Shown here one piece after another: positions 6,295 through 21,870 of a DNA stretch of 21,870 bases. Each line of letters opens with the position of its first letter. The stretch's first letter is position 1. Location of the stretch: the IMG/VR virus record IMGVR_UViG_3300020470_001312, positions 1 through 21,870 of that record. The stretch is one strand, 5' to 3'. A program made the position numbers and the translations under genes. Source of the DNA: a virus. The notes under the pieces were generated by a model. It saw only the letters and a list, made by a program, of their open reading frames with translations. It had not been told where the DNA came from and made no database searches.

Positions 6295-6969
6295 ATGGCT
6301 TTTAATAAGACAAAAACTGACCCTGAACTTGGGTTAGAAATTCACAAGCACTTAGTCAAGTGTGGAGTAGAAACACCCGTAACAGATAATTCACTTAATC
6401 GTACTGAGAAGATAGATATAATTGAATCTCGGTTTACAGATATTATGAACGCATTAGGACTTGATCTTAACGATGATAGTCTTATGGACACACCTAAGCG
6501 TGTGGCAAAGATGTATGTGAATGAAATCTTTTGGGGTTTAGACTATGAGGCATTTCCAAAATGCACAGCAGTTGAAAACAAAATGGAATATGAAAGCATG
6601 GTTATAGAAAGGAACATTAATGTTCAATCTAACTGTGAACACCACTTTGTTGTAATTGATGGTGTTGGAACTGTGGCATACATTCCTAATAAAAAAGTAT
6701 TAGGATTAAGTAAACTGAACAGAATAGTAGAATACTTTGCTAAAAGACCTCAGATACAAGAGCGTTTAACAGAACAAGTATATTATGCACTACAATACAT
6801 TCTCGATACAGACAATATTGCAGTAGTTATTGATGCTCAGCATTATTGCGTAAAGAGTAGAGGTGTAGAAGATGTAGGCTCGTCTACTATTACTAGCAAA
6901 CTAGGTGGTGGGTTTAAAGATGACCCAGCACTAAGGCATGAATTTATGAATATGATTGCTAGAAAATAA
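6295..6969 (+). CDS. folE: GTP cyclohydrolase I
   Basis: FolE converts GTP to 7,8-dihydroneopterin triphosphate, the first step towards folate and 7-deazaguanines. The 224-residue protein has all parts of the type I family: DTPKRVAKMYVNEIFWGLDY near residue 65, the zinc ligands C114 and H117 in SNCEHHFVVIDG, C185 in AQHYCVKSRGVED, the VLGLSKLNRIVEYFAKRPQI substrate-site helix, and the C-terminal SSTITSKLGGGF (usually ...TxxxxGxF). Length equals bacterial FolE (222 in E. coli). With queD and queE in the same block, its role here is most likely to supply precursor for DNA base modification. It has its own strong RBS and a late promoter upstream. Confidence 0.96.
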   Translation: MAFNKTKTDPELGLEIHKHLVKCGVETPVTDNSLNRTEKIDIIESRFTDIMNALGLDLNDDSLMDTPKRVAKMYVNEIFWGLDYEAFPKCTAVENKMEYESMVIERNINVQSNCEHHFVVIDGVGTVAYIPNKKVLGLSKLNRIVEYFAKRPQIQERLTEQVYYALQYILDTDNIAVVIDAQHYCVKSRGVEDVGSSTITSKLGGGFKDDPALRHEFMNMIARK

Positions 6970-6985
6970 CAACAGAGATTATATT

Positions 6986-7495
6986 ATGAATATTGATGGA
7001 AGGCACATAGTCTTAGACTTAGAAACATTATCAACTAGATCCAATGCAGCTATTGTTTCAATAGGAGCAGTAGCAATAGAAGGTCTTGAGATAGTTGACG
7101 AGTTTTATATTAATGTAGATCCTAAAACTTGTAAAGAATCAGGTCTACACATAGACCCTTTGACTATTGAGTGGTGGGCAGAACAAGATAGAGAAGTAAG
7201 GGAAGCCCTACAAATTAATCCTGTTACATTACAAGAGGCACTAGACAAATTTATTAGTTGGTATGGTAATGAGTCGGTTCCTATTTGGGGATTTGGTGCT
7301 AACTTTGATGTTGTAATTATAGAGAGTGCCTTACATGCAGAAGGCATTACAATACCATGGAAGTTCTGGGACATTAATTGTTTAAGAACATTATCTAATG
7401 TATTAGACAAAAGACTACCTAAGAAGAATAATCACAATGCGTTAGACGACGCTAAGGCGGAGGCTAACCTTTTAATTGAAATATTGGAATCATGA
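6986..7495 (+). CDS. dexA: DexA-like 3'-5' exonuclease (DEDD family)
   Basis: A 169-residue 3'-5' exonuclease of the DnaQ/RNase T fold. Exo I is IVLDLETLST (D11, E13), the middle has LTIEWWAEQDREVREAL, very like the STIEWWKNQSPEARKN of T4 DexA, Exo II is GFGANFDVVIIES, and Exo III is NHNALDDAKAEA, carrying the last catalytic His and Asp. KFWDINCLRTL also parallels DexA. It is shorter than T4 DexA (227 aa). The ATG at 6986 is preferred over the upstream TTG at 6956, which would overlap folE. DexA degrades DNA from 3' ends in T4; here its gene overlaps the dpdA ATG by four bases. Confidence 0.85.
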   Translation: MNIDGRHIVLDLETLSTRSNAAIVSIGAVAIEGLEIVDEFYINVDPKTCKESGLHIDPLTIEWWAEQDREVREALQINPVTLQEALDKFISWYGNESVPIWGFGANFDVVIIESALHAEGITIPWKFWDINCLRTLSNVLDKRLPKKNNHNALDDAKAEANLLIEILES

Positions 7496-8832
7496 ATAAA
7501 TTAGAATATGTAATATCAGGAACGTCATATATGCGTTTAAGTAATCCAGGCATTGCTTTAGACGAGACAAATACTGGTATTGTGAATATGTTAATAGACA
7601 AATTATGTAAAGACTATTCACACAACATATCCCTATTATATAATGCTCATACCGAGAGTGCATTTGGAGAAAGATTTAAACCTTATAAGGACCATGTTCA
7701 TAGCATACATGCTGACTCAGGTGGTCTACAGATGATTACATTAGGTTTAGATATTACAGATGAACTAAAAGATAAGGTTTATGAAAACCAGGCAGAGTAT
7801 GCAGATGTAGGTATGTGTTTTGATGAGATACCTGTTAAAGTTCGAGACGGAAGGTCAGAAAGAAATGACACAAAAGGCAGATCTTTTGATAGAGAAAATT
7901 TTGAAGACTATGCTAGGAAGACAGGACAAAATGTTAAACGTCAACTAGAAGTCTTTGACAGTAAAGAGAGCAGCTGTAAACCATTTGTTATTATCCAAGG
8001 GAACGATATTGATACATACCTGAGTTGGTATCACTATGTTATGGAAGAAATCCCTAATGAATGGCACAATCGTTTGGGAGGAATAGCATTAGGTGCAGCT
8101 GCTCTTGGAACTGGAGCATTAGAAGATATTAAAAGAGGTTTCATAGCATCTGAAATAGAAAAGTTATGGCCAATGGATAATATGCACTTACACGTCTTAG
8201 GTATTGGTTCCATTAGACGAATGTTGCCTTACTTGGTATTCCAAAACAACGGTCTTTATAAGGATATTAATATATCATATGACTCTACAACTCATAGTAG
8301 GGCGGTTGAGACAGGTTTGTTTTACATGGGACAAGGCACAACTAAGTTTAGCAGAGAGATGTCCAATTTCTATACAGAAATGTATCAAAACTGCATGAAA
8401 ACTGTTAATTTGGGTGTAGAAATAGACGAATTTCATCATCTTTTAAACACACCTAGTCTAAAGGCAAAGGAAGAATATGGAGATTTGAATAAGTGGTTGT
8501 ATGTTAGAACAGCATTTATTCTAATGTCTATTAGAAACTTCATGCAACACTTAGAACAAATGACTGAGAAGGAACCATTGTTAAAATTTGCAAGTAGAAT
8601 GAAACTAGAGCCTGTATTCAATGCTTTATACAATGTACAAGACAGAGATGGCTTTGAAACATGGTTACGAGAAACAAGAACAGTTAAAGAGTTGAAAAGT
8701 CAAGCAATTGGTACTGGAGATGAAGGAGAACTAGAATTAGAACTTCCCGAAACAGATGCAGATGCTTTAAAAGAGTTTAAGAAAAGTAATTTTAAAAAGG
8801 AGACAGGCAGTTTAGATGAACTGTTTGGTTAG
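7492..8832 (+). CDS. dpdA: DpdA-like DNA 7-deazaguanine transglycosylase
   Basis: DpdA is a relative of tRNA-guanine transglycosylase that exchanges guanine in DNA for a 7-deazaguanine base. The 446-residue protein shows the TGT active-site motif HADSGGLQM with D75 as the likely general acid/base, the substrate-pocket segment GGIALGAAALGTGALEDI around residue 196, HVLGIGSIRRMLPYLVF around 234, and ISYDSTTHSRAVETG with D264 as the likely nucleophile. The C-terminal CxCxxC zinc site of bacterial tRNA TGT is not visible. The gene starts inside the dexA stop and is surrounded by folE, queD and queE, the precursor pathway, which supports a DNA rather than tRNA target. The last 50 residues are Glu/Lys-rich and probably flexible. 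Confidence 0.93.
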   Translation: MNKLEYVISGTSYMRLSNPGIALDETNTGIVNMLIDKLCKDYSHNISLLYNAHTESAFGERFKPYKDHVHSIHADSGGLQMITLGLDITDELKDKVYENQAEYADVGMCFDEIPVKVRDGRSERNDTKGRSFDRENFEDYARKTGQNVKRQLEVFDSKESSCKPFVIIQGNDIDTYLSWYHYVMEEIPNEWHNRLGGIALGAAALGTGALEDIKRGFIASEIEKLWPMDNMHLHVLGIGSIRRMLPYLVFQNNGLYKDINISYDSTTHSRAVETGLFYMGQGTTKFSREMSNFYTEMYQNCMKTVNLGVEIDEFHHLLNTPSLKAKEEYGDLNKWLYVRTAFILMSIRNFMQHLEQMTEKEPLLKFASRMKLEPVFNALYNVQDRDGFETWLRETRTVKELKSQAIGTGDEGELELELPETDADALKEFKKSNFKKETGSLDELFG

Positions 8833-9287: not shown

Positions 9288-10389
9288 TCTAGAATATGTA
9301 GAATCCAGATATACTGCCCAATGGAAAGACGCATTTCCTCAGATGTTAGCAAATGCGTTCCAACAAGATATAGTTTCAATTGAAGGCCCAGATTCCATAC
9401 CACCTTCTACATCTCCAGGTGCTTTTTTAAACTTTGGTGGTACCAATATTTACAAGTCAGCACAGGTTATAGAGATTTCTAGAAGATTTACTGAGGATAT
9501 AATACAAGATGGTGACCAATTTGTATTTGCAGATGCTTGGCATACAGGTATCTTACAGTTAAAATATATGGCAGAACTATTACAAAAAGATATAACAATA
9601 CATGCTTTATGGCATGCTGGTAGTTATGATAAACATGATTTCTTAGGTAGACTTATAGGAGATAAACCTTGGGTAAGGCATACAGAAGAAGCTATATTCC
9701 ATGCAGTAGATAAAAATTATTTTGCATCTAAATTTCATATGGAATTATTTGCTAATTGTTTTTTCCATGATCCTGATTGGCAAAAACCTAAAAAGGCAGA
9801 ATATTTATCAAATAAAATGGTTAGATCAGGTTGGCCTATGGAGTATCTAGAAGAAATGATACGAGAAGATGTTGAAGATAAAGAATACACAAATAAAAAA
9901 GATATAATTTTATTCCCACATAGAATTGCACCTGAGAAACAAGTAGATATATTTAAAGACTTAGAAAAAGAATTACCTCAATATGAATTTATTGTATGCC
10001 AAGAAAAAGAATTAACAAAACCTGAATATCATAAATTGTTAGGTGAGGCAAAGATGGTATTTAGTGCTAACTTACAAGAAACATTAGGCATATCTTGTTA
10101 TGAAGCACTATGTACAAAAGGAATGCCATTAGTTCCTGAAAGACTAAGTTATAAAGAAATGTATGAAGATAGATTTATGTATCCTTCTAAATGGACACAG
10201 AATTGGAAAGAGTATCAGGAACATAAAGAAGAATTAAAAGAAAAGATTGTTACTTTGATGGATAGTTATAATACTAATGAAGTCTTAGCTGACATTGAAA
10301 CAAATAAGCAGAGGTTGCGACTAGAGTATTTTGGAGCAGCTAACTTATACAAGGAGATATATAATAATGAACCAACCAGAACCTTATAG
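9271..10389 (+). CDS. GT-B fold glycosyltransferase-like protein
   Basis: A 372-residue protein whose C-terminal half looks like a GT4-type nucleotide-sugar domain: DIILFPHRIAPEKQVDIFKD (the typical R-x-x-x-E-K strand), LPQYEFIVCQ, HKLLGEAKMVFSANLQETLG with the E-x-x-G donor-site motif, and SCYEALCTKGMPLVPE. The N-terminal half has GT-B acceptor-domain features such as FVFADAWHTGIL and ITIHALWHAGSYDKHD. The acceptor cannot be read from the sequence. Its gene lies inside the DNA-modification block, overlapping the T-fold gene by 17 bases and queD by 23, so sugar transfer onto modified DNA bases, as T4 does with glucose on hydroxymethylcytosine, is an attractive inference. A lipid, protein or LPS acceptor remains possible. 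Confidence 0.72.
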   Translation: MIYLVDLEYVESRYTAQWKDAFPQMLANAFQQDIVSIEGPDSIPPSTSPGAFLNFGGTNIYKSAQVIEISRRFTEDIIQDGDQFVFADAWHTGILQLKYMAELLQKDITIHALWHAGSYDKHDFLGRLIGDKPWVRHTEEAIFHAVDKNYFASKFHMELFANCFFHDPDWQKPKKAEYLSNKMVRSGWPMEYLEEMIREDVEDKEYTNKKDIILFPHRIAPEKQVDIFKDLEKELPQYEFIVCQEKELTKPEYHKLLGEAKMVFSANLQETLGISCYEALCTKGMPLVPERLSYKEMYEDRFMYPSKWTQNWKEYQEHKEELKEKIVTLMDSYNTNEVLADIETNKQRLRLEYFGAANLYKEIYNNEPTRTL

Positions 10390-10840
10390 AGATTACAAAT
10401 ATTACTCTACAAAAACTTATGGACATGAACAAGGTCTTTCATGTATGTTTAGACAACCTTTGGCAACTCATAGTCATTGTAGTTTACTACATGGTTACGC
10501 TTTGTCTTTTAGTTTTAAATTTGGATGTGACCAACTTGATGATAAAAATTGGGTGGTAGACTTTGGTGATTTAAAAGATTTAAAAGCGTGGTTAAAAGAT
10601 AATTTCGACCACAAACATGCAGTAGCAAAAGACGATCCTGAACTACAAGAGTTTCTATTAATAGAACAGAAAGGATTGTCAGAAGTACGAGTTATGAACG
10701 GAGTAGGATGTGAAAAGTTTGCAGAACAAGCATTCCACTTTGCTAATGACTTGGTAAGAAAGAAAACAAACAACAGGTGTTATGCAGTATCCTGTGAAGT
10801 GAGAGAACATGGAGCTAATTCAGCAATATACGAAGGTTAA
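10367..10840 (+). CDS. queD: QueD-like 6-carboxy-5,6,7,8-tetrahydropterin synthase
   Basis: QueD turns the FolE product into 6-carboxy-5,6,7,8-tetrahydropterin, the substrate of QueE. The 157-residue protein has the QueD pattern: QGLSCMFRQPLATHSHCSLL with HGY following (catalytic Cys and metal-site His), NWVVDFGDLKDLKAWLKD, the DHKHAV loop, VGCEKFAEQAFHFANDL, and VREHGANSAIYE with the conserved Glu. Compared with E. coli QueD, the HGH pair is HGY and the first zinc His is replaced, with extra His residues in THSHC; I associate this GLSC-FRQ form with a known QueD subfamily. ATG 10367, 10 bases after AAGGAG, is chosen over the upstream TTG at 10331. It overlaps the glycosyltransferase gene by 23 bases. 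Confidence 0.9.
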   Translation: MNQPEPYRDYKYYSTKTYGHEQGLSCMFRQPLATHSHCSLLHGYALSFSFKFGCDQLDDKNWVVDFGDLKDLKAWLKDNFDHKHAVAKDDPELQEFLLIEQKGLSEVRVMNGVGCEKFAEQAFHFANDLVRKKTNNRCYAVSCEVREHGANSAIYEG

Positions 10841-10842
10841 CA

Positions 10843-11904
10843 ATGAAAGTTGCTCTAGTTACAGATACGCACTTTGGTGCTCGTTCAGATCATTTAGCAT
10901 TTGATGCTTATTTTGAAAAATTTTATACTGATTTTTTCTTTCCTTACTTAGAAAAGGAAGGCATAAAAACAATATGTCATTTAGGTGATATATTTGATAG
11001 AAGGAAGTATATTAATTTCAATACATTGAAGTCTTGTAAAAGATACTTCTTTGGCAAAGCAGCAGAGTTGGGTATCGAAATACATATGGTGCCAGGTAAT
11101 CATGATACATACTTTAAAAATACAAATGAAGTAAACAGTCCTAACTTATTACTTGGTGAATACAATAACATAACATTATACGAAGAGCCAGAAGAGATAA
11201 TGTTAGATAGGGAAAAGGTTCTTTACCTACCCTGGATATGCGGAGAAAATTATGACAGGACTATGGCCAAAATTAAAGAGACAGACGCAAAGACTTGCTT
11301 CGGACATTTCGAATTCGCAGGTTACGACCTTCTTCCTGGAATGCCTAATCTCCACGGCATGGATTCTTCTATTTTTAGTGATTTTGAGCTCGTTGTTAGT
11401 GGCCACTTTCACCATCGCCATTCTAGAGGCAATATTACATATATGGGCAACCCTTATGAAATCACCTGGAGTGATTACGAAGACCCTAGAGGATTTGCGA
11501 TCTTTGATACTAACAAAAGAGCATTGGAATACCATAACAACCCTTATAGACTCTTCCATAAAATCTATTATGACGACTCCACCTTTGAAGGTGTTAATAG
11601 TATCAGCCATTTTGATTTCGGTAGTATTACTGGTGGTTGTGTAAAACTAATTGTAAGCAATAAGACAGACTTTACAAGGTTTGACCACTTTGTAGATAAA
11701 TTATATCAATGTAATTTAATTGATTTAAAAATTATAGAAGATTTCTCAGAGTTCGAAGATGAAGCATTGGGTGAAGATATAGATTTAGAAGACACAATGA
11801 CTTTATTAAAAGAATATGTCAATTCAGTTGAAACAGATTTAGATAAACAAAGAATTAAAAATCTGTTACAAAGTTTATATGTGGAAGCACAAGATATAGG
11901 ATGA
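10843..11904 (+). CDS. 47: gp47-like recombination nuclease subunit (SbcD/Mre11 family)
   Basis: gp47 is the Mre11-type nuclease that, with gp46, resects DNA ends for phage recombination and host DNA breakdown. The 353-residue protein (T4 gp47 is 339) contains all phosphoesterase motifs: LVTDTHFGAR (D8, H10), HLGDIFDRR (D49), VPGNHDTYF (N86, H87), and LVVSGHFHHRHSR with the last metal histidines. It begins two bases after the queD stop and overlaps the gp46 start by four bases (ATGA). A segment of roughly 400 bases in its middle (about 11230-11640) has noticeably more C-ending codons and fewer stops in other frames than its flanks. Confidence 0.94.
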   Translation: MKVALVTDTHFGARSDHLAFDAYFEKFYTDFFFPYLEKEGIKTICHLGDIFDRRKYINFNTLKSCKRYFFGKAAELGIEIHMVPGNHDTYFKNTNEVNSPNLLLGEYNNITLYEEPEEIMLDREKVLYLPWICGENYDRTMAKIKETDAKTCFGHFEFAGYDLLPGMPNLHGMDSSIFSDFELVVSGHFHHRHSRGNITYMGNPYEITWSDYEDPRGFAIFDTNKRALEYHNNPYRLFHKIYYDDSTFEGVNSISHFDFGSITGGCVKLIVSNKTDFTRFDHFVDKLYQCNLIDLKIIEDFSEFEDEALGEDIDLEDTMTLLKEYVNSVETDLDKQRIKNLLQSLYVEAQDIG

Positions 11905-13574
11905 TTAAATTTACAAATATTAGATGGAAAAATTTTCTATCTACAGGCAATGCGTGGACCGAGATTGATTTTCAACATAGTCCCAGCACATTGATTGTAG
12001 GTGAAAACGGCAGTGGCAAATCTACATTATTAGATGCTTTAACATTTGCATTATTTAATAAACCATTTAGAAATGTAAGTAAACCACAACTAATTAATTC
12101 TATTAACAACAAACATTGTTTGGTTGAAATTAACTTTAGGATAGGCAGTAAAAATTATCTTATAAGAAGAGGATTACAACCAAGAGTATTTGATATAGAA
12201 ATTGATGGAGAGTTATTAGATAAGAATGCTAACATTAGAGACTTCCAAAAGTATTTAGAAGAAAATATTCTTAAACTTAATTACAAATCATTTACACAGA
12301 TAGTGATGTTAGGTAGTGCTTCTTTTACTCCTTTTATGCAGTTACATTTAGGAGCAAGAAGAGAGATAATTGAAGACATATTAGACATTACAATCTTTAC
12401 TGCCATGAACGGTGTGTTAAAGACAAAGGTAAATGATTTAGAAAACAAAGTAAGACTTATAACAGGTGAAGTAGATGTAGCAAAGCAGAAAGCAACTCTT
12501 CAAGAACAATATATAAAGACATTGGAGGACGATAAAGAGTCCAAAGTAATCTCACTACAGGAATCAATTAATGAAGCAGAACACGCGATTAAGGTTTATG
12601 AAGAAAGTACACATGCAGCAACAGAGAAGAAGAGCAATTTGGGCGACGTTGACAAGAAGAAGAGGGAGCTCGAAAGATACAGAGACAAATTCACAGGACA
12701 AATTAACGACCACAGAAAACAAATAGAGTTCTTCCATAATAATGAGGAGTGTCCTGTTTGTCAACAAGGTATTGAGCACGATCATAAAGAGATAATGACA
12801 CAAAGAGATGAAGAGAAAGTCTCTGAACTGGAAGGTGCTCTAGAAGAACTGAATACGAAGTACGAAGAAGTAGAAAAACTTGTTGAACAAGTAAATGAAT
12901 TAGACAAACAAATAATGGATTCTAATAATGAAGTTATTGCACAACAAAGAATAGTGCAACGACTTACATTAGAGATGAGTGAGACTCAAAATAAAGTAGG
13001 AGATATAACAGCAGAGAAAGACAAGTTAAAGAAACTTGCCAAAGATGTTATTAAAAAGTCCACAGAAAAAACAGACTTAAATGAAACGAATCATTATTAT
13101 AGTCTATGTACTTCCTTATTAAAAGATTCTGGTATTAAAACTAAGATAATTAGACAATATGTTCCTATAATAAACAAATTAGTTAATAAATACCTTGCAG
13201 CAATGGACTTTTTTGTTCAGTTTGAAATGGATGAAACATTCAAAGAAACAATTAAGTCTAGGTTTAGAGATAAATTTAGTTATGCATCTTTCAGTGAAGG
13301 TGAGAAACAAAGAATAGATTTAGCATTGGTGTTTACTTGGAGAACTATTGCCAAGATGAAAAACAGCGCTAGTACTAATATACTTTTATTAGATGAAGTG
13401 TTTGATAGTAGTTTAGATAATGATGGAACGCAATATGTTATGCAACTATTAGATACAATAGGAGAAGATACGAATGTCTTCGTAATATCTCATAAGGGAG
13501 ATCAATTGTTTGATAAATTTAGATCAGTTATTAAATTTGAGAAGAGGCAGAATTATTCTGTAATAGCAAAATGA
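11901..13574 (+). CDS. 46: gp46-like recombination ATPase subunit (SbcC/Rad50 family)
   Basis: gp46 is the Rad50-type ATPase that partners gp47. The 557-residue protein matches T4 gp46 (560). Walker A GENGSGKST is at residues 34-42, a long coiled coil spans about 165-400, the zinc hook CPVC is at 284-287 in its middle, the ABC signature FSEGEKQR is near residue 464, and Walker B ends in LLLDE with D498 and E499, followed by VFDSSLDNDG. The short coiled coil is typical of phage rather than cellular Rad50. The start overlaps the gp47 stop, and the stop overlaps the next ATG, both as ATGA. Confidence 0.95.
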   Translation: MIKFTNIRWKNFLSTGNAWTEIDFQHSPSTLIVGENGSGKSTLLDALTFALFNKPFRNVSKPQLINSINNKHCLVEINFRIGSKNYLIRRGLQPRVFDIEIDGELLDKNANIRDFQKYLEENILKLNYKSFTQIVMLGSASFTPFMQLHLGARREIIEDILDITIFTAMNGVLKTKVNDLENKVRLITGEVDVAKQKATLQEQYIKTLEDDKESKVISLQESINEAEHAIKVYEESTHAATEKKSNLGDVDKKKRELERYRDKFTGQINDHRKQIEFFHNNEECPVCQQGIEHDHKEIMTQRDEEKVSELEGALEELNTKYEEVEKLVEQVNELDKQIMDSNNEVIAQQRIVQRLTLEMSETQNKVGDITAEKDKLKKLAKDVIKKSTEKTDLNETNHYYSLCTSLLKDSGIKTKIIRQYVPIINKLVNKYLAAMDFFVQFEMDETFKETIKSRFRDKFSYASFSEGEKQRIDLALVFTWRTIAKMKNSASTNILLLDEVFDSSLDNDGTQYVMQLLDTIGEDTNVFVISHKGDQLFDKFRSVIKFEKRQNYSVIAK

Positions 13575-14227
13575 AATACACGGAACAATTTAATTCAGGA
13601 CCAGAATATTTAACAGATAAATGTTGGCCACATTCATATGGACCTAAAGTCTATGATGAATTGTTTGAGCCTATACAAAATTCTGTTAGAAATTATTTAG
13701 AGATAGGCTCTGCATATGGAGGTTCTTGTTTATTAGCTAGAGATTATTTTCCTAGGGCTACTATTTGGACAATAGATAGACTTGTACCTAATAGACGAAT
13801 TAGAGATTCAGAAAGAATAGTTAGTTTATGTGCTGATGCTTATCAACAAAAAGTAGCAAATATGTTTGCAGCAGAAATGGATATTATTATTGATGATGGT
13901 TCACATAATATAGATGATCAATGCAAAGCTATTGATTTATATTTAGAGAAGTTACTACCAGGAGGCCTTTTTATTATTGAAGATGTAGAGTGGCCAGAAA
14001 ATTCATTCAAATTATTTGATGAGAGATTAAAATTAATAGAAGAAGATTTAAGACGTAATGGCAATCATTGGATAACTTATGATGTTGCTACCTATGTAGG
14101 TCCAGAATACTTTAATAATGTAAAGCCTGGAAGAGAACAGTATGCAGAAGAAGAAATGAAAAAGCATGGTGAACTAAAAATGAAAGCCAAGGATGATAAT
14201 CTTTACATAGTAAAAAGAGTATCGTAA
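13571..14227 (+). CDS. Class I SAM-dependent methyltransferase
   Basis: A 218-residue Rossmann-fold methyltransferase. Motif I is YLEIGSAYGGSCLLA near residue 42, followed by the acidic ribose-binding strand TIWTIDR (D69), and motif IV is EMDIIIDDGSHNIDDQ at about 102-117, with LPGGLFIIEDVEW after it. The DDGSH motif is typical of the Methyltransf_24/CmcI-like group, whose known members methylate small molecules or sugars, often metal-dependently. The acceptor here is unknown. A sugar or surface glycan target would be compatible with the glycosyltransferase at 9271, but the two genes are separated by queD, gp47 and gp46. It overlaps the gp46 stop by four bases. Confidence 0.8.
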   Translation: MKYTEQFNSGPEYLTDKCWPHSYGPKVYDELFEPIQNSVRNYLEIGSAYGGSCLLARDYFPRATIWTIDRLVPNRRIRDSERIVSLCADAYQQKVANMFAAEMDIIIDDGSHNIDDQCKAIDLYLEKLLPGGLFIIEDVEWPENSFKLFDERLKLIEEDLRRNGNHWITYDVATYVGPEYFNNVKPGREQYAEEEMKKHGELKMKAKDDNLYIVKRVS

Positions 14228-14251
14228 AGTTAATATTTAAAAGGAAAACAA

Positions 14252-14485
14252 ATGAAGGTTACAATATATGGAAAAACACGATGTACATTTTGCACATCAG
14301 CAAAACAACTTTGTGAACAAAAGGGTTTAGATTATGAATACTTGTTACTAGATGCAGACTATAAAGCAGAAGAACTGTTTGAAAAAGTACCCAATGCAAG
14401 AACATTTCCACAAATTTTTATTGATGATAACCCTGTTGGTGGATTCCAAGAGTTCCAACAGATACTTAATTTAGGAACAAAATGA
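14252..14485 (+). CDS. Glutaredoxin
   Basis: A complete 77-residue glutaredoxin. The redox motif is CTFC at residues 11-14 after TIYGKTR, the cis-proline loop is RTFPQIFIDD, and the glutathione-binding GG is in NPVGGFQEF. In T4-like phages the corresponding protein (NrdC) donates electrons to phage ribonucleotide reductase; no nrdA or nrdB is in this window, so partner assignment is by analogy. An AAAAGGAAAA ribosome binding site precedes the ATG, and the stop overlaps the deformylase ATG by four bases. Confidence 0.92.
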   Translation: MKVTIYGKTRCTFCTSAKQLCEQKGLDYEYLLLDADYKAEELFEKVPNARTFPQIFIDDNPVGGFQEFQQILNLGTK

Positions 14486-15015
14486 GCGATTTAGAATTAA
14501 TCCCTTTTACATCTCCTCAACTGAAGGAACCTCCAAAACAGTTGGATATAGAAAAGGAAGATTTAAAAGCACTTAAATTTGAATTACTACAAGCAATGCA
14601 AAAGTTTGGTGGTGTAGGTTTATCTGCTAATCAAGTAGGTATTGATAAGGCATACTTTGTTATTGGAGATGGCAAACCTGAAGGCATGCAAAAAGCATTT
14701 TTCAATCCACTATTAATAGCAGTTAGTGATGATGAAGAAGTTATGAGAGAAGGTTGTTTATCATTCCCTGGTTTGTGGTTAATGGTAAATAGACCTAAAC
14801 AATGTACAATATTATATCATAATTCAGACGGTGAAGAACAACAAGAAACATATGAAGGGATAGGTGCTAGAGTTATACTACACGAATACGATCATATGGT
14901 AGGGCAAAACTTTACACAAAGAGTTTCAAAGTTCAAACTAGAGCGTGCTTTCAAAGCTCTAGAAAAGAAAATAAAGAAGTACCAAAGACAATCCAAACAA
15001 CTCAAACAGGCATAA
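14482..15015 (+). CDS. def: Peptide deformylase
   Basis: Peptide deformylase removes the formyl group from the N-terminal methionine of new proteins. All three motifs are present in 177 residues: GGVGLSANQVG at 43-53 (the usual GLAA is GLSA), EGCLS at 90-94 with metal ligand C92, and HEYDH at 134-138 with the two metal histidines and the catalytic Glu. Phage deformylases are well known in marine T4-like phages, usually shortened at the C-terminus. This one instead keeps a Lys-rich C-terminal helix of about 25 residues. The TAA stop lies inside a CATAAATA late-type promoter for the next gene. Confidence 0.94.
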   Translation: MSDLELIPFTSPQLKEPPKQLDIEKEDLKALKFELLQAMQKFGGVGLSANQVGIDKAYFVIGDGKPEGMQKAFFNPLLIAVSDDEEVMREGCLSFPGLWLMVNRPKQCTILYHNSDGEEQQETYEGIGARVILHEYDHMVGQNFTQRVSKFKLERAFKALEKKIKKYQRQSKQLKQA

Positions 15016-15036: not shown

Positions 15037-15387
15037 ATGGCAGAAGAATTTGATTTTGGTTTTACGGCAGTTGATGAACCGGACCAACCGGCTTCACAAC
15101 CAGTAGCTCCGTCCGTAGATGAAGATAAAATAATGGACAAATTACAGCAGCTAGAAGCCAAGATACTGACAGCTGATAACTCCGGAATGATAAATGAGCA
15201 TAGAGCTCTTATTGAATCTGATGTGGCAACTAAACTTCGTGATGTAGAAGATCTCATACTACCTTTACTGTTTAATTTGCAGAAAAATCCTGAAAAGGAA
15301 TATATACATTGGCCCAATAGAACGGCAATAATTGATAAACAAATTGAAAAAATAAAGGCGGTAACGAGATATTATGAGCGAATCTAG
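15037..15387 (+). CDS. Conserved phage protein of unknown function (116 aa)
   Basis: The N-terminal 35 residues are acidic and low-complexity (EEFDFGFTAVDEP, then Pro/Gln/Ala-rich), followed by a helical region (KIMDKLQQLEAKILTADN, LRDVEDLILPLLFNLQ) and a compact motif NPEKEYIHWPNRTAIIDKQI near the end. I associate the NPEKEYI-WPNR ending with a conserved hypothetical protein of T4-like marine phages, but no function is known to me. It has a consensus RBS and a likely late promoter, so a virion or assembly role is plausible. Its end overlaps the ClpP-like gene by 14 bases. Confidence 0.82.
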   Translation: MAEEFDFGFTAVDEPDQPASQPVAPSVDEDKIMDKLQQLEAKILTADNSGMINEHRALIESDVATKLRDVEDLILPLLFNLQKNPEKEYIHWPNRTAIIDKQIEKIKAVTRYYERI

Positions 15388-15982
15388 TCCAGCAAAACCA
15401 ATAAACATACAACCCACGGGCAACGCTTACGAAAGACCTGTTGCCCGTGTCTTTGATTTATATTTAACAGGCGTAATAGGAGAACCAAAAGAGTATCAAG
15501 ATTGGAATCAGATACTACGGATGTCTAGTGAACATGATGCTGTTATAATTCACATTAATTCTGAAGGCGGTGCTATGTTTACTGCAATACAATTAATGAA
15601 AGCAATTGCAGAAAGTCCTGCAACAGTAATTGCCTCGGTAGAAGGTATGTGTATGTCAGCAGCAACATTAATATTTTTAAGTGCTGAGATATGTGAAATA
15701 TCTGAACATAGTCATTTCATGTTCCATACATATAGTTCAGGTAATTGGGGTAAAGGTAACGAACAGATAGCTAATGTACAAGCAGATGATAAGTGGGCAA
15801 GACATTTATTCCAGTCTGTATATAAAGACTTTTTATCACCACAAGAACTTAAACAAATGGTAGATGGCAAAGACTTTTGGATGACTCCTTCAGAAGTTAC
15901 TAAAAGATTAGAAGCAAGGAATAAAAAAATCAAAAGAACTAGAGGACCAAAAGCGAAACAAAATGCTTTACAAAAGGCTTAA
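15374..15982 (+). CDS. ClpP-like serine protease
   Basis: A 202-residue protein of the ClpP/crotonase fold. The strand-turn INSEGGAMFTAIQLMKAI matches the N-S-P/E-G-G oxyanion region, the nucleophile is S95 in GMCMSAATLIFLSA, the histidine is H118 in HFMFHTYSSG, and the third residue is probably D157 in KDFWMTPSEV, aligned with the ClpP D-R-F-L-S-A-x-E-A segment. The full triad therefore appears present. The C-terminal 30 residues are very basic. Phages use ClpP-like proteases in head maturation or as host-protease homologues; T4 itself uses gp21. No capsid genes are in view, so the role is open. It could be co-expressed with the deformylase for protein turnover. Confidence 0.85.
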   Translation: MSESSPAKPINIQPTGNAYERPVARVFDLYLTGVIGEPKEYQDWNQILRMSSEHDAVIIHINSEGGAMFTAIQLMKAIAESPATVIASVEGMCMSAATLIFLSAEICEISEHSHFMFHTYSSGNWGKGNEQIANVQADDKWARHLFQSVYKDFLSPQELKQMVDGKDFWMTPSEVTKRLEARNKKIKRTRGPKAKQNALQKA

Positions 15983-16027: not shown

Positions 16028-16621
16028 ATGCGTAAAAGAATAATAATAGTAGGGGCAGTATTAGCAGCCATATTTATGGCAACACCTGTTAAAGCAGCAG
16101 ATACATCAGATGTAATTGCTGGTATTATCTTTGGCGGACTATTGGGATCAGAGATACAAAAGAATAGAGAGTATAGGGACGACTATCCTCACCCATATTA
16201 CAATGACAGATATAATAGTTATGGTGGGTATGAACAAAGACGTAGGCATGGTAATTACAGACATTATTATCAACCTAGTATCTTAATTCTACCTGACGGA
16301 ACTATTATAGAACCAAGAGTAAGTTTACCTAGAGTTAGGGAAGACTTCTGTTGGTATGTAAATCCAGATGCAACACTTCCTAGATGTAGGGATATTGATA
16401 TTGGATACATGAAAGACTCTGGGTTCAATTACATGGAGATTGATCGTATGTTAAACTTAGGTTCATACGCACAGTCATATGTAAATAGAACTTATGGTAA
16501 AAGGAGAAGTAGTGAACACCGAGACTTGGTGGAACGCTATTCTTATCCATGTGGACATGCAGGTTATGTTCCAATGGGTATTAGGGGCTGCACGGAAGTA
16601 GCAGAATATTATAACAAATAA
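16028..16621 (+). CDS. Secreted glycine-zipper protein of the cell envelope
   Basis: A 197-residue protein with a clear signal peptide: MRKR, the hydrophobic IIIVGAVLAAIFMA, and a VKA-A cleavage site near residue 23. Right after it comes a glycine-zipper-like hydrophobic segment (VIAGIIFGGLLGSEI), as in the 17-kDa surface antigen type of outer membrane proteins. A Tyr/Arg-rich stretch follows (about 45-85), then a folded C-terminal part with four cysteines (in FCWYV, PRCRD, YPCGHAG and RGCTE) that could form disulfides in the periplasm. There is no lipobox. It has a GGAGG RBS and stands 14 bases before the TonB-dependent receptor gene, so the two probably act together in the host envelope. 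The precise function is unknown. Confidence 0.78.
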   Translation: MRKRIIIVGAVLAAIFMATPVKAADTSDVIAGIIFGGLLGSEIQKNREYRDDYPHPYYNDRYNSYGGYEQRRRHGNYRHYYQPSILILPDGTIIEPRVSLPRVREDFCWYVNPDATLPRCRDIDIGYMKDSGFNYMEIDRMLNLGSYAQSYVNRTYGKRRSSEHRDLVERYSYPCGHAGYVPMGIRGCTEVAEYYNK

Positions 16622-16635
16622 TTTTTAAGTACATT

Positions 16636-18180
16636 ATGAAAAATTTGGTAGTATTAGTCGTGGCCTTTTTGGCCACGTCTGTCTATGCGCAACAAAGTGA
16701 TATAGAAGAAATAGTAATTGTTGGATCAACAATCAAAAACGGGTTTTCAGATCCTGAAACAGATAACCTAGCAATAGAAGCAATAGAACCCATTAAAATA
16801 TATGCACCTGGAGGTAGGGGTGGTTTTATTGGAGCAACATTAAATGGAACTGACGTAAAAAATACAGCAGTTTTTAGAAATGGAATTCCTGTAAACGATC
16901 CTGGCTCTGGTTGGTATGACTTTGGTGTAGACATTCCTTCATATCAATCTTACAAAGTAATATCAGGACCTAACTCTGTATTATTTGGAAGTTCAAGTAT
17001 GGCAGGAACAGTATTGATAGAAGATGAATATTGGCAAGACGTATTATATAGTAAAGGTGGTGAAGACCAAAGCTATGTGATGTTTGGTAATAAGCATTTA
17101 CTTGTATCAAGATACCATGGTACTAGCGGTTCTGTAATGACAGACAATAGTGAAGACGATTGGTTTAAAAATACAACATTAAGATCTAAAATGGAGTGGC
17201 AAGGATTTCAGTTTCTTTCTACAGTTACAGATTATGAATATGAGTATGATAATTGTTATGCTGTTGACTGGAGTAATACAGATGAATGTAAACAAAATGG
17301 CACAAAGTTAACATCATCAATACGAAATGATTGGTTAACACTAGGTTACAGTAGAAATGATACTGAACATCTTAGTGCAGGAGATAAAACTTGGCAAGCA
17401 GATAATAATAGATATTACATTGACGCTAAGGAAAGTATAGGTGACTTTTTATTGGGTGCAACATATCAGAAAGAAAAATATAATGATCTAGAAGATGAGA
17501 GACCAGCAGTATATGTGAATTGGCAAAATACACATTTTGGAGTTGGTTATCGTCGTGAAGAGTCAACAAACATATTTAGATTTGGATTAGATTTAAAAGG
17601 TGTTAAGTTTTCCTTAGGTAACAGTTTTAGATCTCCTAATTTATATGAACGATTTGGGGATGACTGGGTGGGTGCAAACCCTAGTTTAAAGCCTGAAGAA
17701 GGTAAAGGTGCTGAAATAAGTTATAGTAAATTTACTGCATGGAGATATGAATTTGATGAGGGTATTGATTTTGATTTTATGCAATATCAATATATAAACT
17801 CTGGAGAGTACACATCTACAGGTATTAAGTATGCTAATCATATAATAACTGAGAACGGAAGTTGGTATGTATTGGCACAATACACAGACACAGATAAACT
17901 TAGGGTTCCTAAATATCAAACAAAGATATCTTACTATAATGGTTGGGGTGACTTTGATTATATGATTGAATATGTAGGAGCATACGATAAAGGATTAGAG
18001 TTTGATGGCAGACCTATAGATGATATGTCAACATTTAATTTTAATTTAGGATATTATTTCGATAGGAAATATCGTTTAGGTTTACAGATCAAAGATATTA
18101 TGAACAGACACTTTGAAATTTTACCAGGGTATAGCGCAGGTGGTAGAGAGCTAACTCTTAGTCTCGACGTCAGTATATAA
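16636..18180 (+). CDS. BtuB-like TonB-dependent outer membrane receptor
   Basis: TonB-dependent receptors pull scarce ligands (cobalamin, siderophore iron, heme) through the outer membrane. The 514-residue protein has a signal peptide cut after VYA (residue 18), a TonB-box-like EEIVIVGS (24-31), a plug with VISGPNSVLFGSSSMAGTVL (108-127) matching the G-P-x-S-x-x-Y-G-S-x-x-x-G-G motif, and a beta barrel with SFRSPNLYERFG then NPSLKPEEGKGAEI. Its end, HFEILPGYSAGGRELTLSLD, is close to the last strands of E. coli BtuB (YGYQTAGREYTLSG). It is shorter than BtuB (614), and the plug lacks the usual D-V-L-x-x-x-P-G-V segment. No Shine-Dalgarno is seen. Cobalamin is the best guess for ligand, by resemblance only. 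Confidence 0.92.
   Translation: MKNLVVLVVAFLATSVYAQQSDIEEIVIVGSTIKNGFSDPETDNLAIEAIEPIKIYAPGGRGGFIGATLNGTDVKNTAVFRNGIPVNDPGSGWYDFGVDIPSYQSYKVISGPNSVLFGSSSMAGTVLIEDEYWQDVLYSKGGEDQSYVMFGNKHLLVSRYHGTSGSVMTDNSEDDWFKNTTLRSKMEWQGFQFLSTVTDYEYEYDNCYAVDWSNTDECKQNGTKLTSSIRNDWLTLGYSRNDTEHLSAGDKTWQADNNRYYIDAKESIGDFLLGATYQKEKYNDLEDERPAVYVNWQNTHFGVGYRREESTNIFRFGLDLKGVKFSLGNSFRSPNLYERFGDDWVGANPSLKPEEGKGAEISYSKFTAWRYEFDEGIDFDFMQYQYINSGEYTSTGIKYANHIITENGSWYVLAQYTDTDKLRVPKYQTKISYYNGWGDFDYMIEYVGAYDKGLEFDGRPIDDMSTFNFNLGYYFDRKYRLGLQIKDIMNRHFEILPGYSAGGRELTLSLDVSI
16659..16677 (+). promoter_or_regulatory. GC-rich hairpin inside the receptor's signal-peptide codons
   Basis: CGTGGCC (16659-16665) and GGCCACG (16671-16677) pair perfectly around TTTTT. 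AG (16656-16657) and CT (16679-16680) extend the stem past one mismatch. It starts 23 bases after the receptor ATG, in a gene that has no clear RBS and a G+C-poor context. It could modulate translation, or merely reflect hydrophobic codons. Confidence 0.4.
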
Positions 18181-18183
18181 ATA
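18176..18183 (+). promoter_or_regulatory. T4-type late promoter before the radical SAM gene
   Basis: An exact TATAAATA overlaps the receptor stop codon and lies nine bases before ATG 18192. It is embedded in a short dyad, CAGTAT (18171-18176) and ATACTG (18181-18186). A start about six bases downstream of the octamer would leave almost no leader, and no Shine-Dalgarno is present. Confidence 0.6.
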
Positions 18184-18191
18184 CTGATGAG

Positions 18192-19640
18192 ATGCCTGAT
18201 ATAATTCTATTCACAGATGTATGCAGTCCCGGTTTTGGAAGATATGCCGGGACATATCGTATTGCATCTGAGCTCAGGGCTAATGGATACAAAGTACAGG
18301 TTATAGAATACTTTACTAAGTGGTCAACAGAAGAACTTATAAACATAATTAAAAAATTTGTTGGTAAGAATACATTATGGGTTGGAATTAGTACTACATT
18401 TTTAGAGTATGAACGCATGCTCCAAACAGGTAAAAACAGAACGAATGTTTTTACTGCACAAATGACTGTTACAGGAAGAGACGATTGGGCAGAATTAGTA
18501 GATGAAATAAGATCAATTAATCCTGATTGTAAGATTGTAGCAGGAGGCACAAAGGTAGGACATATAAGACCTGATGATAAAACATTTGATATTATTATAC
18601 AAGGACAAGGTGAGGAAAGTGTCCTACAAATTACAAAAGAAATAGAAGAAAAAAGACCATCAAAAAGAACATTGAACTTAGGGTTTGAAAGATTTTCAAC
18701 CTGTTCTATATTATGGGACGATGATGATTTAATATTTCCTAACGAACATTTACCAATAGAAATTGCTAGGGGTTGCATATTTAAATGTAGCTATTGTAGT
18801 TATGATCTTAATGGTAAAAAGATATGGGAGTTTAATAGAGTTCCTGAATTAGTTAGAAAAGAAATAGAAGATGCAAAGAATAGATTTGGAAGTACAGGGT
18901 TTATGTTCTGTGATGATACCTATAATGATAGTCCAGAAAAAGTAGCAAGGTTCCATGAGGAATTTATGAAAATGGATTTCAATATTGAGTTCAGTAGTTT
19001 TGCTAGATTAGATCTAATAGTATCTCATTGGGAGACAGCAAAACAATTATATGAAAGTGGTCTTAGAAGTGTCTTTTTTGGTGTTGAATCCTTTAATACA
19101 TTATCAGGTAGAGCAATAGGTAAAGGTATGCCAGGTGAGAAACTTAAAGATGGGTTGATGAGATTACGAGAGGAATGTCCTGATATGATTATACTTACAG
19201 GACTAATTGTAGGGTTACCACATGATACACCTGATACATTACGAGCTAATAATGAGTGGTTAAAGCAGCCAGACTGCCCCGTAGATGTAGTTTCATATCA
19301 CCCACTATACATACACCCACATGATGGTAGTCTAATGGCTAAGAACCCTGAACAATATGGATATGAGTTAGACGGACTGGGTGGTTGGACAAGAGATGAT
19401 GGTATTACAAGGCAAGATTGCGTAGGATTGGCACAAGAATTACAGTTAGATTTCGCCAAAGGAGAACCCTTAAAACGTGGTGCCTGGACCTTCTTTAATA
19501 GGTTCCAGAACTTAGGGTTTACTGCAGAACAGTTCAAAAAAACGTCCCTAGGGTATCCAAATGACGTTTTGGACTCAGAAATAGTGGGTCGAGAACAAGA
19601 AAAATTCGATTTTTATAAGTCCAGACTCCTAAGTCTTTGA
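18192..19640 (+). CDS. Radical SAM protein with B12-binding-like N-terminal domain
   Basis: A 482-residue enzyme in two parts. Residues 1-145 resemble the cobalamin-binding Rossmann domain of B12-type radical SAM proteins: DIILFTDVCSPGFGRYAGTY, IASELRANGYKVQVIEYF, KIVAGGTKVGHI and IIIQGQGEES, the last matching the usual G-E-G-E. The radical SAM core begins at IARGCIFKCSYCSY with cluster cysteines C195, C199 and C202, followed by FMFCDDTYNDSPEKV, FFGVESFNTLSGRAIGKG and LTGLIVGLPHDTPDT, the order of Elp3/MiaB-type barrels. No DxHxxG lower-ligand motif is visible, as in many enzymes of this group, so cobalamin binding is not proven. The reaction is unknown; methylation or other chemistry on an unactivated carbon would fit. 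It follows the BtuB-like receptor directly. Confidence 0.88.
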   Translation: MPDIILFTDVCSPGFGRYAGTYRIASELRANGYKVQVIEYFTKWSTEELINIIKKFVGKNTLWVGISTTFLEYERMLQTGKNRTNVFTAQMTVTGRDDWAELVDEIRSINPDCKIVAGGTKVGHIRPDDKTFDIIIQGQGEESVLQITKEIEEKRPSKRTLNLGFERFSTCSILWDDDDLIFPNEHLPIEIARGCIFKCSYCSYDLNGKKIWEFNRVPELVRKEIEDAKNRFGSTGFMFCDDTYNDSPEKVARFHEEFMKMDFNIEFSSFARLDLIVSHWETAKQLYESGLRSVFFGVESFNTLSGRAIGKGMPGEKLKDGLMRLREECPDMIILTGLIVGLPHDTPDTLRANNEWLKQPDCPVDVVSYHPLYIHPHDGSLMAKNPEQYGYELDGLGGWTRDDGITRQDCVGLAQELQLDFAKGEPLKRGAWTFFNRFQNLGFTAEQFKKTSLGYPNDVLDSEIVGREQEKFDFYKSRLLSL

Positions 19641-19739: not shown

Positions 19740-21870
19740 ATGAACCAGATAGAAACAAAATCAATACTAGCAAAATGTTTGGCAACGGAAAACATCGAAG
19801 TCATTCATGATAAAAACATGCCTACAGCGGCATTTGATGTTAAGAACAGAAAATTACTTCTTCCAGTTTGGAAGGAGATGTCTACAGACTTATATGATCT
19901 GTTTATTGGCCATGAAGTTGGACACGCACATGAAACTCCTGAAGAAGGATGGCATGATTTCGTAATTGAAGACATGAACAAAAAAGCATTCCTTAATGTT
20001 GTTGAAGATGTTCGTATTGAAAAGAAAATTAAAGCAAGATATCCTGGTTTAGTTAAGTCCTTCTACAAAGGTTACAAAGAATTATTTGATAAAGACTTTT
20101 TTGGTATTGGTAACTTAGACGTTGACCAACTACCACTTATTGATAGAGTAAACCTACATTATAAAGTAGGCCATCTACTTGGTGTTACATTCGCAGAACA
20201 CGAAAAAGATTTAGTAGAAAGAATTGGCAAAGTTAAAACTTTTGAAGAGGTTATGAAACTTGCTGAAGAACTTTATGGCAATCATAAAAAAGAACAAGAG
20301 GAAAGACAAGAAGACCTCTCAGACTTTATTGAAAAAAACATGCCACACCCTTTTACACAAGAAGGACAGGAAGAGTTACAAGAAAGACAGCAACAAAGGG
20401 AAGCTGCTAAGGAACAAATCCAAGAAGAAAGAGATGCAGCTGAAGAAGCATACGAAAAAGAAGAGAATCGTAGACGTGATCTTCAAAACGAAGCATGGGA
20501 CAATGATCAAGAATTTGATGAAGACCAATTCAAAGATGAAGATGGTAGAGATGAACATGCAAGCAGATCATCATACGACGGATTGACTTGGGATGAAAGA
20601 CAAGATTTAGAAGATCGTGAGAGAAAACTTGAAGAAGAAGAAAAAGAAGATGCGAAAAGTGTTCTTGAAGCACAAAAAGAAAAAGATCTTCTTGATGAGA
20701 TTCAAGACTACTTAGATGAAGATGGACATTCAATTACAGACTCACAGTTTAGAAAAAATGAGAAAGGTTTAGTTGATGAAGATTCAAAAGATTTAAAACA
20801 TGTCAAACCTTTTAAAGGTGAAGTAGCTGATTATGTTGTTCCAATGGAAGAGGTATATGATTGGAACGAATGTGCTAGAGTTACTAGGACATATAGAGAA
20901 GAAGACAGTTATATGGGATCTTGGAAAGAAGAAGAGATTACAGATGTCAAAGGTTATGGTCAGAAACTTTGGAAAGAGTATGAACCAAAACAAAGATCTA
21001 TAATTAACTCAATGGCTCAACAGTTTGAACTTAGAAAAGCAGCAACATCATTTAAGAAATCTAGAATTTCTAAAACAGGTAAGTTGAATGAGGACAAGCT
21101 TTGGGCATACAAAATTACTGAAGATCTTTTCCACCAAACTCAAATCGTACCACAAGGTAAGAATCATGGTATCCTAATGTTCGTAGACATGTCAGGTAGC
21201 ATGAACAGACAGATGAAGGGTACATTAGAACAAATGGAAACGATGGCAATGTTTTGCAGAAGAGTTAACATTCCTTTTGATGTTTATGGATTTAGTGATT
21301 CAGGAAAAAGAACATCAAGTCATACCAAACAACAATTGGTAGACGAACTTACAGCAGAAGGTGGTAGAGGTAACTTTAGTTTTGCACACTTACTTAGCTC
21401 TAAGTGGAACAATGTTCAATGGAACGACGCAATGGCTTACCTACAAGTAATGAAAAAAGGTTATGAGCGTTCTAGGTATTACACAGATTTAACTGACGGA
21501 CATTATGTTTACCTTGATAACAGATTCTTTAGACTAGGTGGTACACCACTTGTAGCAGCACTTACATTGGCTCCTGAGTTAGCAAAAAGATTCCAAAAGA
21601 ATTACAATGTAGAAAAATTGACTACAATAATTCTAACAGATGGTGACCCAACTGATGATCTTACTTTTGTTGATGACCCAGATGCAGATCAGCACTGGGC
21701 TAGACATAGTGATAAGAAATTTGTAATCAAAGATGGAGCAACAACATTCTCAATTCCAACTAATGATAGTTATTATAATAATAGAAAAGAGAATGTGATA
21801 TTACTTTTAGAATACTATAAGAGAATCACACAATCTGTTCTAATTAACTTCCACTTATTAGATGACAATT
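19740..21870 (+). CDS. HExxH metallopeptidase-like / VWA-domain protein, CobT-like (3' end missing)
   Basis: The frame is open from ATG 19740 to the window end (710 codons). The N-terminal 190 residues contain LFIGHEVGHAHETP with HEVGH at 58-62, a zinc-peptidase signature, and a further VVEDVRIEKKIK motif where a third ligand might be. Residues about 190-330 are a Glu/Gln/Lys/Asp-rich, probably coiled or disordered linker. The C-terminal part is a von Willebrand A domain with a full metal-site (MIDAS) motif: DMSGSM (D483, S485, S487), GGTPL (T602) and LTDGDP (D634). This linker-plus-VWA layout resembles CobT, the cobaltochelatase subunit, and similar genes occur in marine T4-like phages beside a CobS-like MoxR ATPase. 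A peptidase or ATPase-partner role is as likely as cobalt insertion. Confidence 0.85.
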   Translation, partial: MNQIETKSILAKCLATENIEVIHDKNMPTAAFDVKNRKLLLPVWKEMSTDLYDLFIGHEVGHAHETPEEGWHDFVIEDMNKKAFLNVVEDVRIEKKIKARYPGLVKSFYKGYKELFDKDFFGIGNLDVDQLPLIDRVNLHYKVGHLLGVTFAEHEKDLVERIGKVKTFEEVMKLAEELYGNHKKEQEERQEDLSDFIEKNMPHPFTQEGQEELQERQQQREAAKEQIQEERDAAEEAYEKEENRRRDLQNEAWDNDQEFDEDQFKDEDGRDEHASRSSYDGLTWDERQDLEDRERKLEEEEKEDAKSVLEAQKEKDLLDEIQDYLDEDGHSITDSQFRKNEKGLVDEDSKDLKHVKPFKGEVADYVVPMEEVYDWNECARVTRTYREEDSYMGSWKEEEITDVKGYGQKLWKEYEPKQRSIINSMAQQFELRKAATSFKKSRISKTGKLNEDKLWAYKITEDLFHQTQIVPQGKNHGILMFVDMSGSMNRQMKGTLEQMETMAMFCRRVNIPFDVYGFSDSGKRTSSHTKQQLVDELTAEGGRGNFSFAHLLSSKWNNVQWNDAMAYLQVMKKGYERSRYYTDLTDGHYVYLDNRFFRLGGTPLVAALTLAPELAKRFQKNYNVEKLTTIILTDGDPTDDLTFVDDPDADQHWARHSDKKFVIKDGATTFSIPTNDSYYNNRKENVILLLEYYKRITQSVLINFHLLDDN

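Follow-up and report, generated by a model that had tools for sequence, protein, structure and literature searches.

We find that a T4-like phage encodes an intact TonB-dependent transporter (TBDT) whose nearest solved structure, judged from its predicted model, is the B12 transporter BtuB. The gene lies at 16636..18180 (+) of the window, by which we mean the whole 21,870-nucleotide stretch analysed here, and it is a gene of T4-like phages and no host contamination, as the transporter sits among phage core genes on independent contigs. The reading we favour, with slightly less than even confidence, is that the phage encodes a functional importer for cobalamin or some similar corrinoid, representing a virus-specific BtuB-type family. 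As we picture it, the transporter would be expressed during infection, exported by its own signal peptide and built by the host into its outer membrane; cobalamin or a related corrinoid would be captured in a pocket ordered by calcium-binding loops, and the host TonB-ExbBD would pull on the Ton box and so admit the ligand. The corrinoid might then support infection; its most plausible user is a phage radical SAM enzyme of B12-binding type, encoded directly downstream in this lineage. This suggests that uncultured T4-like viruses with their own relative of the B12 gate may control the vitamin uptake of the cells they infect.

The open reading frame runs from an ATG through 514 residues with no internal stop, in agreement with the preliminary description of this DNA, which had named a TBDT of that length on a T4-like phage. 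At the N-terminus we read, by eye, a signal peptide followed by the Ton-box-like segment DIEEIVIVGS. The Pfam Plug domain (PF07715) is recognised on residues 57-125 (profile positions 38-107 of 107) with an E-value of 4.5e-6 and 27.6 bits against a cut-off of 23.9, and it also exceeds the cut-off in all six further family members scanned. Base composition is even, with a GC content of 0.33-0.36 across the gene against 0.30-0.37 in the window. A search for T4 late promoters returned TATAAATA three times in the window where 4.3 occurrences are expected; one copy (18176-18183) overlaps the transporter stop and ends 8 bases ahead of the next start, and because of this overlap and the low count we claim no late promoter.

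Structure prediction and comparison with known transporters, which the preliminary description had proposed as a check, gave a 22-strand barrel with a plug and BtuB as its closest structural match. The AlphaFold2 model, built on a 17-row alignment (pLDDT 80.0, pTM 0.80), has the plug followed by 22 barrel strands at residues 136-512. Foldseek places E. coli BtuB entries in positions 1-6, and BtuB also heads the DALI-like VIA-align results (Z 35.2 over 492 residues, rmsd 3.0, 20% identity), whose rows 1-15 are B12 transporters only (E. coli, Z 33.2-35.2; Bacteroides, 31.0-31.1), the next being a heme transporter at 29.8; a family missing from the VIA-align listing is not thereby excluded. Profile comparison in local mode scores BtuB at 145, above CirA (52), FepA (33), FhuA (31) and FecA (26). 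The model of a distant member (L040) has about 20 barrel strands, with residues 458-490 at low confidence; the clade of L032, L035 and L040 has about 22 residues fewer near the transporter C-terminus.

The earlier wording "very close to BtuB" holds for the barrel end, where the BtuB model TIGR01779 finds its best stretch on residues 322-510 (E 3.4e-12; NCBIfam), but not for the protein as a whole, which at 20% identity misses the BtuB equivalog score by far (TIGR01779, 45.7 bits against 599.7; PRK10641, 41 against 836). These two BtuB models, both far below their cut-offs, are the only NCBIfam matches of the window protein at E <= 0.1. Two of three close members additionally match the hemoglobin/transferrin receptor model, and among nine distant members six match a BtuB model at E <= 1e-5 and three match no model.

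A first scan of viral contigs returned a single relative, 92% identical and on a syntenic T4-like contig; a second syntenic T4-like contig (L003), with a 67% identical transporter, was reached by taking the adjacent radical SAM gene as the query. Profile scans extended this to 32 viral loci with a three-row alignment and to 70 viral-contig loci with the 17-row alignment, several of them near-copies, at best-segment identities of 28-92%. A search for homologues beside phage genes had been suggested at the outset; Gp23, the T4 major capsid protein, is found on 13 of the 20 transporter contigs tested, the remaining seven being records of 47.7-103 kb that are possibly fragments. For conservation analysis we retained 39 representatives, namely those of the 70 loci with at least 480 aa, minus near-copies (similarity ratio >= 0.95) and the incomplete L059 and L077; L009 and L010, copies of L001 and L003, are represented by the latter, and the fragments L027, L031, L071 and L078-L081 were excluded. 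In a maximum-likelihood tree the 39 phage representatives split from eight bacterial sequences with support 100/100 on a branch of 2.03, a separation to be read in light of the small bacterial sample and the long branches. The transporter dN/dS is 0.195 between the window and L001 and 0.225 between the window and L003, and together with the intact frame this bears out the earlier view that the gene is not a decayed acquisition. Elsewhere in the window, a methyltransferase-like gene (13571-14227) has a dN/dS of 0.64 against L001, much above its neighbours.

The gene run of the window is T4-like, with gp46 (phrog_77), a ClpP-like protease (phrog_1827) and a phrog_459 peptidase recognised by PHROGs profile, and gp47 and a UvsW-like helicase recognised by eye. 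The ClpP-like gene (15374..15982, +) forms the left border of the cargo site, and the peptidase (19740..21869, +), which has HEVGH and DMSGSM motifs and runs off the window, forms the right one. Just upstream of the transporter lies a gene for a secreted-looking protein of 197 aa with a Gly-rich stretch and several Cys (16028..16621, +). Look-alikes occur in L116, L121 and L040, and since L116 and L121 have no transporter, this protein is probably independent of it and an unlikely partner. In L007 and L008 the ClpP-like and peptidase genes, between which the transporter stands elsewhere, enclose ligase-like and cell-wall-hydrolase-like genes (by eye). The window also encodes QueE-like, FolE, Tgt/DpdA-like and QueD-like proteins (4637-5512, 6295-6969, 7492-8832 and 10361-10840), which resemble a 7-deazaguanine pathway that might serve to modify phage DNA.

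Other members of the family occupy other sites. In L044 and L046-L048 the transporter stands between a conserved small gene and gp47, in L062-L069 immediately upstream of the uvsW-like helicase gene, and further settings are seen in L053-L057/L070, in L029/L034/L058/L060/L061 and in L035-L038. A gene for a membrane-protein-like product of 446-456 aa with no PHROG match ends just ahead of the transporter in L053-L057 and L070. Given these varied settings and a dN/dS of about 0.2, the transporter behaves as cargo under selection. Among the best 80 of at least 595 gp46 loci, with the transporter scored in whatever stretch was available per locus, it is present in 20 of 30 at gp46 identities of at least 70%, in 1 of 11 at 60-69% and in 0 of 39 below 60%. 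Of the ten loci without it in the top class, L116 alone has ample sequence past gp46 (7.7 kb), and this close relative offers a natural comparison: at 11621-14761 it has the ClpP-like gene, secreted protein and peptidase, but neither the transporter nor the radical SAM gene lies among them.

Two extracellular loops, within residues 166-219 (17131..17293, +), align with the calcium cage of BtuB and contain a Cys pair. Across the 39 representatives N171, E173, D175 and D205 are present in all, Y204 in 38 and D170 in 29, and the Cys pair, C207 and C218 of the same loop, is invariant (39/39). In BtuB numbering, counterparts of N194, D195 and D230 are kept in 39/39, of Y229 in 38/39 and of D193 in 29/39; hhalign agrees on these counterparts except for D195. 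BtuB D179 has no counterpart and that of D241 is uncertain. The five cage columns in E. coli FhuA, CirA and FecA show at most two of the BtuB letters, and FepA shows three of the five (D, N and D), with W and N in the remaining columns, in a low-confidence alignment. In BtuB, two calcium sites in a five-aspartate cage lie near the pocket and calcium raises cobalamin affinity about 1000-fold (PMC7360065).

A second line of evidence is the gene directly 3' of the transporter (18192..19640, +), which encodes a radical SAM protein of 482 aa with a B12-binding-type N-terminal domain (Pfam, NCBIfam). The domain match, at 25 bits, is below the Pfam cut-off of 32.1, and the two best NCBIfam matches of the protein, PhpK radical SAM P-methyltransferases and a lipid-biosynthesis B12-binding radical SAM family, are likewise below cut-off. 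Only in the window, L001 and L003 does the gene adjoin the transporter. More broadly, B12-domain matches occur in 8 of 19 records that carry the transporter and in 1 of 9 that do not, some records being near-copies. They exceed the Pfam cut-off in one of 28 records (1 of 12 in one scan, 0 of 16 in the other). Among records of at least 83 kb the match is found in all six transporter-bearing ones tested (G005, G006, G007, G008, G010, G300) and in neither of two others (G291, G293); G009 (103 kb, with a transporter, and apparently a near-copy of G008) was left out of this search, and the 82-kb, transporter-bearing G011 gave no B12-domain match. Both G009 and G011 carry a radical SAM homologue close to the transporter (28% and 30%). 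The sole transporter-less record with a B12-domain match, G295, begins inside gp46 and shares its IMG dataset number with L048, whose contig stops inside gp46 just past the transporter; from the shared number and the two breaks within gp46, we infer that G295 may represent the second half of a phage with a transporter.

All ten loci examined, including three pairs that are alike, have a CxxxCxxC frame matching the window radical SAM protein at 27-30%, and in both of two such proteins scanned Radical_SAM is above and the B12-binding match below cut-off. Searching three of these proteins by tblastn against 50,697 phage records returned 1, 0 and 1 record, the same faecal contig both times. In L001 a CobS-like ATPase gene of the kind found in T4-like phages (phrog_249, 'porphyrin biosynthesis') follows the radical SAM gene and the peptidase. 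Its cobalamin annotation is a link of sorts, but the product is an ATPase far below the CobS cut-off (TIGR01650, E 6e-21, 74.9 bits against 558.55), and we give it little weight and regard the neighbourhood as possibly coincidental since L116 appears to keep a look-alike with no transporter. Downstream of it in L001 (17128-18192) lies a gene for a ferritin-like protein resembling R2-like ligand-binding oxidases or aldehyde oxygenases. A need of B12 for class II ribonucleotide reductase is unsupported: NrdJ_Z matches 13 of 20 records but exceeds its cut-off in 0 of 20, and the same 13 have a class I ribonucleotide reductase small subunit above cut-off.

Taken together, we favour corrinoid import because BtuB ranks first by both fold and profile, B12 transporters stand above heme transporters, the window protein matches no NCBIfam models other than those of BtuB, BtuB-type loop residues are kept, several extracellular loops are well conserved, dN/dS is about 0.2 and B12-type radical SAM genes occur in these phages. 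Against it we count the alignments that disagree on the Ton box, conservation of only 0.49 in loop L3, the three cage letters shared by FepA, B12-domain matches mostly below cut-off, a radical SAM gene adjacent in three contigs only, and a phage-encoded TonB in none of 12 phage records, in a search in which two bacterial records were positive. Further points on this side, namely the 20% identity, the widely missed BtuB cut-offs, a calcium cage lacking D179 and uncertain at D241, and the hemoglobin/transferrin matches in two of three close members, also fit a real phage TonB-dependent importer of another ligand, such as heme, a metal chelate or some other scarce cofactor, in which the likeness to BtuB would be ancestry only. 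We consider this somewhat unlikely, as the ranking of B12 over heme transporters in the fold comparison, the retained BtuB-type loop residues and the B12-type radical SAM genes of the same phages all argue against it.

Loop conservation bears on a different role. Assuming the usual topology, mean conservation is 0.59-0.72 in extracellular loops L2, L7 and L9-L11 against 0.49 in the strands; periplasmic turns are at 0.26-0.39 in nine of ten cases and at 0.62 in one, and L3, which has D205, is at strand level. This pattern is easier to reconcile with a fixed ligand than with an arms race, although part of it, for instance the NPNLKPE-like motif of L7, is shared by TBDTs in general. The phage protein might instead replace, or compete with, a host surface transporter used by other phages, in a form of receptor replacement or superinfection exclusion for which transport would be unnecessary. 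TBDTs are classic phage receptors (PMC11658791), and five extracellular loops (L1, L4-L6 and L8) have only 2-4 residues each and would offer little grip, but its longer surface loops rank with the best-conserved parts and not with the most variable ones, and the Ton-box-like segment is conserved although superfluous for a mask. We thus regard receptor replacement as quite unlikely. Among the roles proposed in the preliminary description, nutrient import is the one that the evidence favours, most likely of a corrinoid, and masking or decoy functions come out as less favoured.

The Ton-box-like segment (residues 23-31; 16702..16728, +) is conserved, with E25 in 38 of 39 representatives and V or I at residue 28 in all 39. 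From E25 to the NG motif, 35 of the 39 representatives span 57 residues and the remaining four span 53 (column count). In the profile alignment (hhalign) BtuB has 18 additional residues, with the gap at about mature residues 22-39 (hand numbering), and the phage segment falls on the BtuB Ton box; in the MAFFT alignment the phage N-terminus falls gap-free on the first BtuB plug strand, and the BtuB Ton box and linker are what is missing. We tentatively prefer the former because the segment directly follows the signal peptide, fits the Ton-box pattern and is poorly ordered in the model (pLDDT in 10-residue blocks from residue 1: 44, 31, 60, 82).

In BtuB, residues 23-73 form a mechanically weak plug part that unfolds under TonB pull, and its modelled removal yields a 12.5 x 30 Å channel (PMC5413942). 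By the profile alignment the phage plug lacks about 18 of the 50 weak-part residues, and would have lost part, but not all, of the mechanically weak half. A plug trimmed in this way might open under weaker or no Ton pull and let scarce B12 into infected cells for viral B12-dependent radical SAM chemistry; this extended scheme we think unlikely. The shortening also invites the idea of an outer-membrane pore for lysis or permeabilisation, leaky or easily opened, all the more as it affects 39 of 39 representatives in the very region whose modelled removal opens BtuB, as the related cultured phage Melnitz has a different outer-membrane pore, CsgGF, with a proposed lysis role (PMC9004378), and as the hydrolase-like gene of L007 and L008 occupies this site. 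Such a pore is nevertheless improbable, since so few weak-part residues are gone, the plug core is the best-conserved region of the protein (0.72 in the 39 representatives) and the transporter neighbours vary by lineage and as a rule are not lysis genes. Finally, a host gene misassembled onto a phage contig, the chimera against which the preliminary description had cautioned, or a decaying recent acquisition has a negligible chance and no supporting point, given syntenic T4-like contigs with 92% and 67% identical copies, Gp23 on 13 of 20 transporter contigs, 70 loci, a dN/dS of about 0.2, even base composition and no close cellular relative in the scans made.

If phage-encoded corrinoid import is real, a lytic phage would alter what enters the cell, besides the metabolism inside it, and would compete for a vitamin in short supply in seawater, so that phage infection would be tied to B12 ecology. 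Small natural TBDTs with a trimmed plug would be models of gating, and the self-feeding of lytic phages through their own outer-membrane proteins would become testable.

How far the family extends beyond these contigs can be gauged from several collections. At E <= 1, tblastn with the transporter matched 16 of the 50,697 phage records: two Salmonella contigs with btuB and 16S rRNA filed as phages (AFYI01000005.1, AGRM01000004.1; E 2e-4), a faecal contig at E 0.2, and thirteen records of T4-like phages at E 0.8, of which ten are annotated as single-strand binding protein and three have no annotation. In the same collection gp46 is found in 2,691 records, and its closest match, at 47%, comes from the Methylophilales phages Melnitz. 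With 70 viral-contig loci the phage copy, called unusual at the outset, is not a one-off, and a SusC-type precedent is on record (PMC9723777). A sequence search of solved structures gave one chance match and nothing else. As for a cellular source, scans of genome contigs returned none and later three weak partial relatives. In the class to which the L043 genome belongs, the profile matched 2 of 274 genomes at E <= 1e-15, in each case at the plug end (model positions 8-165 and 15-193) of a protein of about 640 aa; in the class of the L041 genome it matched 0 of 289, a scan run without a positive control; as the cellular scans used phage-derived motifs or a loose first pass, distant donors can escape them. 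The literature search, which left out most subscription papers and all preprints, turned up no BtuB-type viral family and no paper combining cobalamin, auxiliary metabolic genes, TonB and viruses.

Among known systems, the sole PHROGs family to match the protein is phrog_5687, of unknown function, which covers window residues 323-409 (E 2.7e-9), a partial match to a 760-position profile. The only named TBDT among BFVD viral structures at E <= 0.001 is of SusC type (A0A8D9FQQ5) and is apparently an entry of the kind found in the marine megaphage Mar_Mega_1, whose SusC-type TBDT was proposed to raise nutrient uptake in infection (PMC9723777); it too is a TBDT on a phage, but it has 805 residues, a TM-score of 0.51 and 10% identity to the window model, and comes from another phage group. 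Another marine phage, the pelagiphage Skadi, has an annotated TBDR, which its authors read as a pointer to the adsorption receptor (PMC10504331); Skadi is of HTVC010P type, and there the gene is surrounded by tail-tube and capsid genes. E. coli BtuB (TIGR01779; PDB 2gsk, 1nqh) is the best match by fold and profile, sharing the plug and 22-strand barrel, the C-terminal strands and several calcium-loop residues, yet identity is 20%, the phage protein has 514 residues against 614, several of its loops are very short, its N-terminal plug region is about 18 residues shorter, D179 is not kept and the gene is phage-borne. Phage-borne TBDTs have precedent; what appears new here, relative to the literature searched, is a viral family of BtuB type, shortened in its plug region and present on many T4-like contigs.
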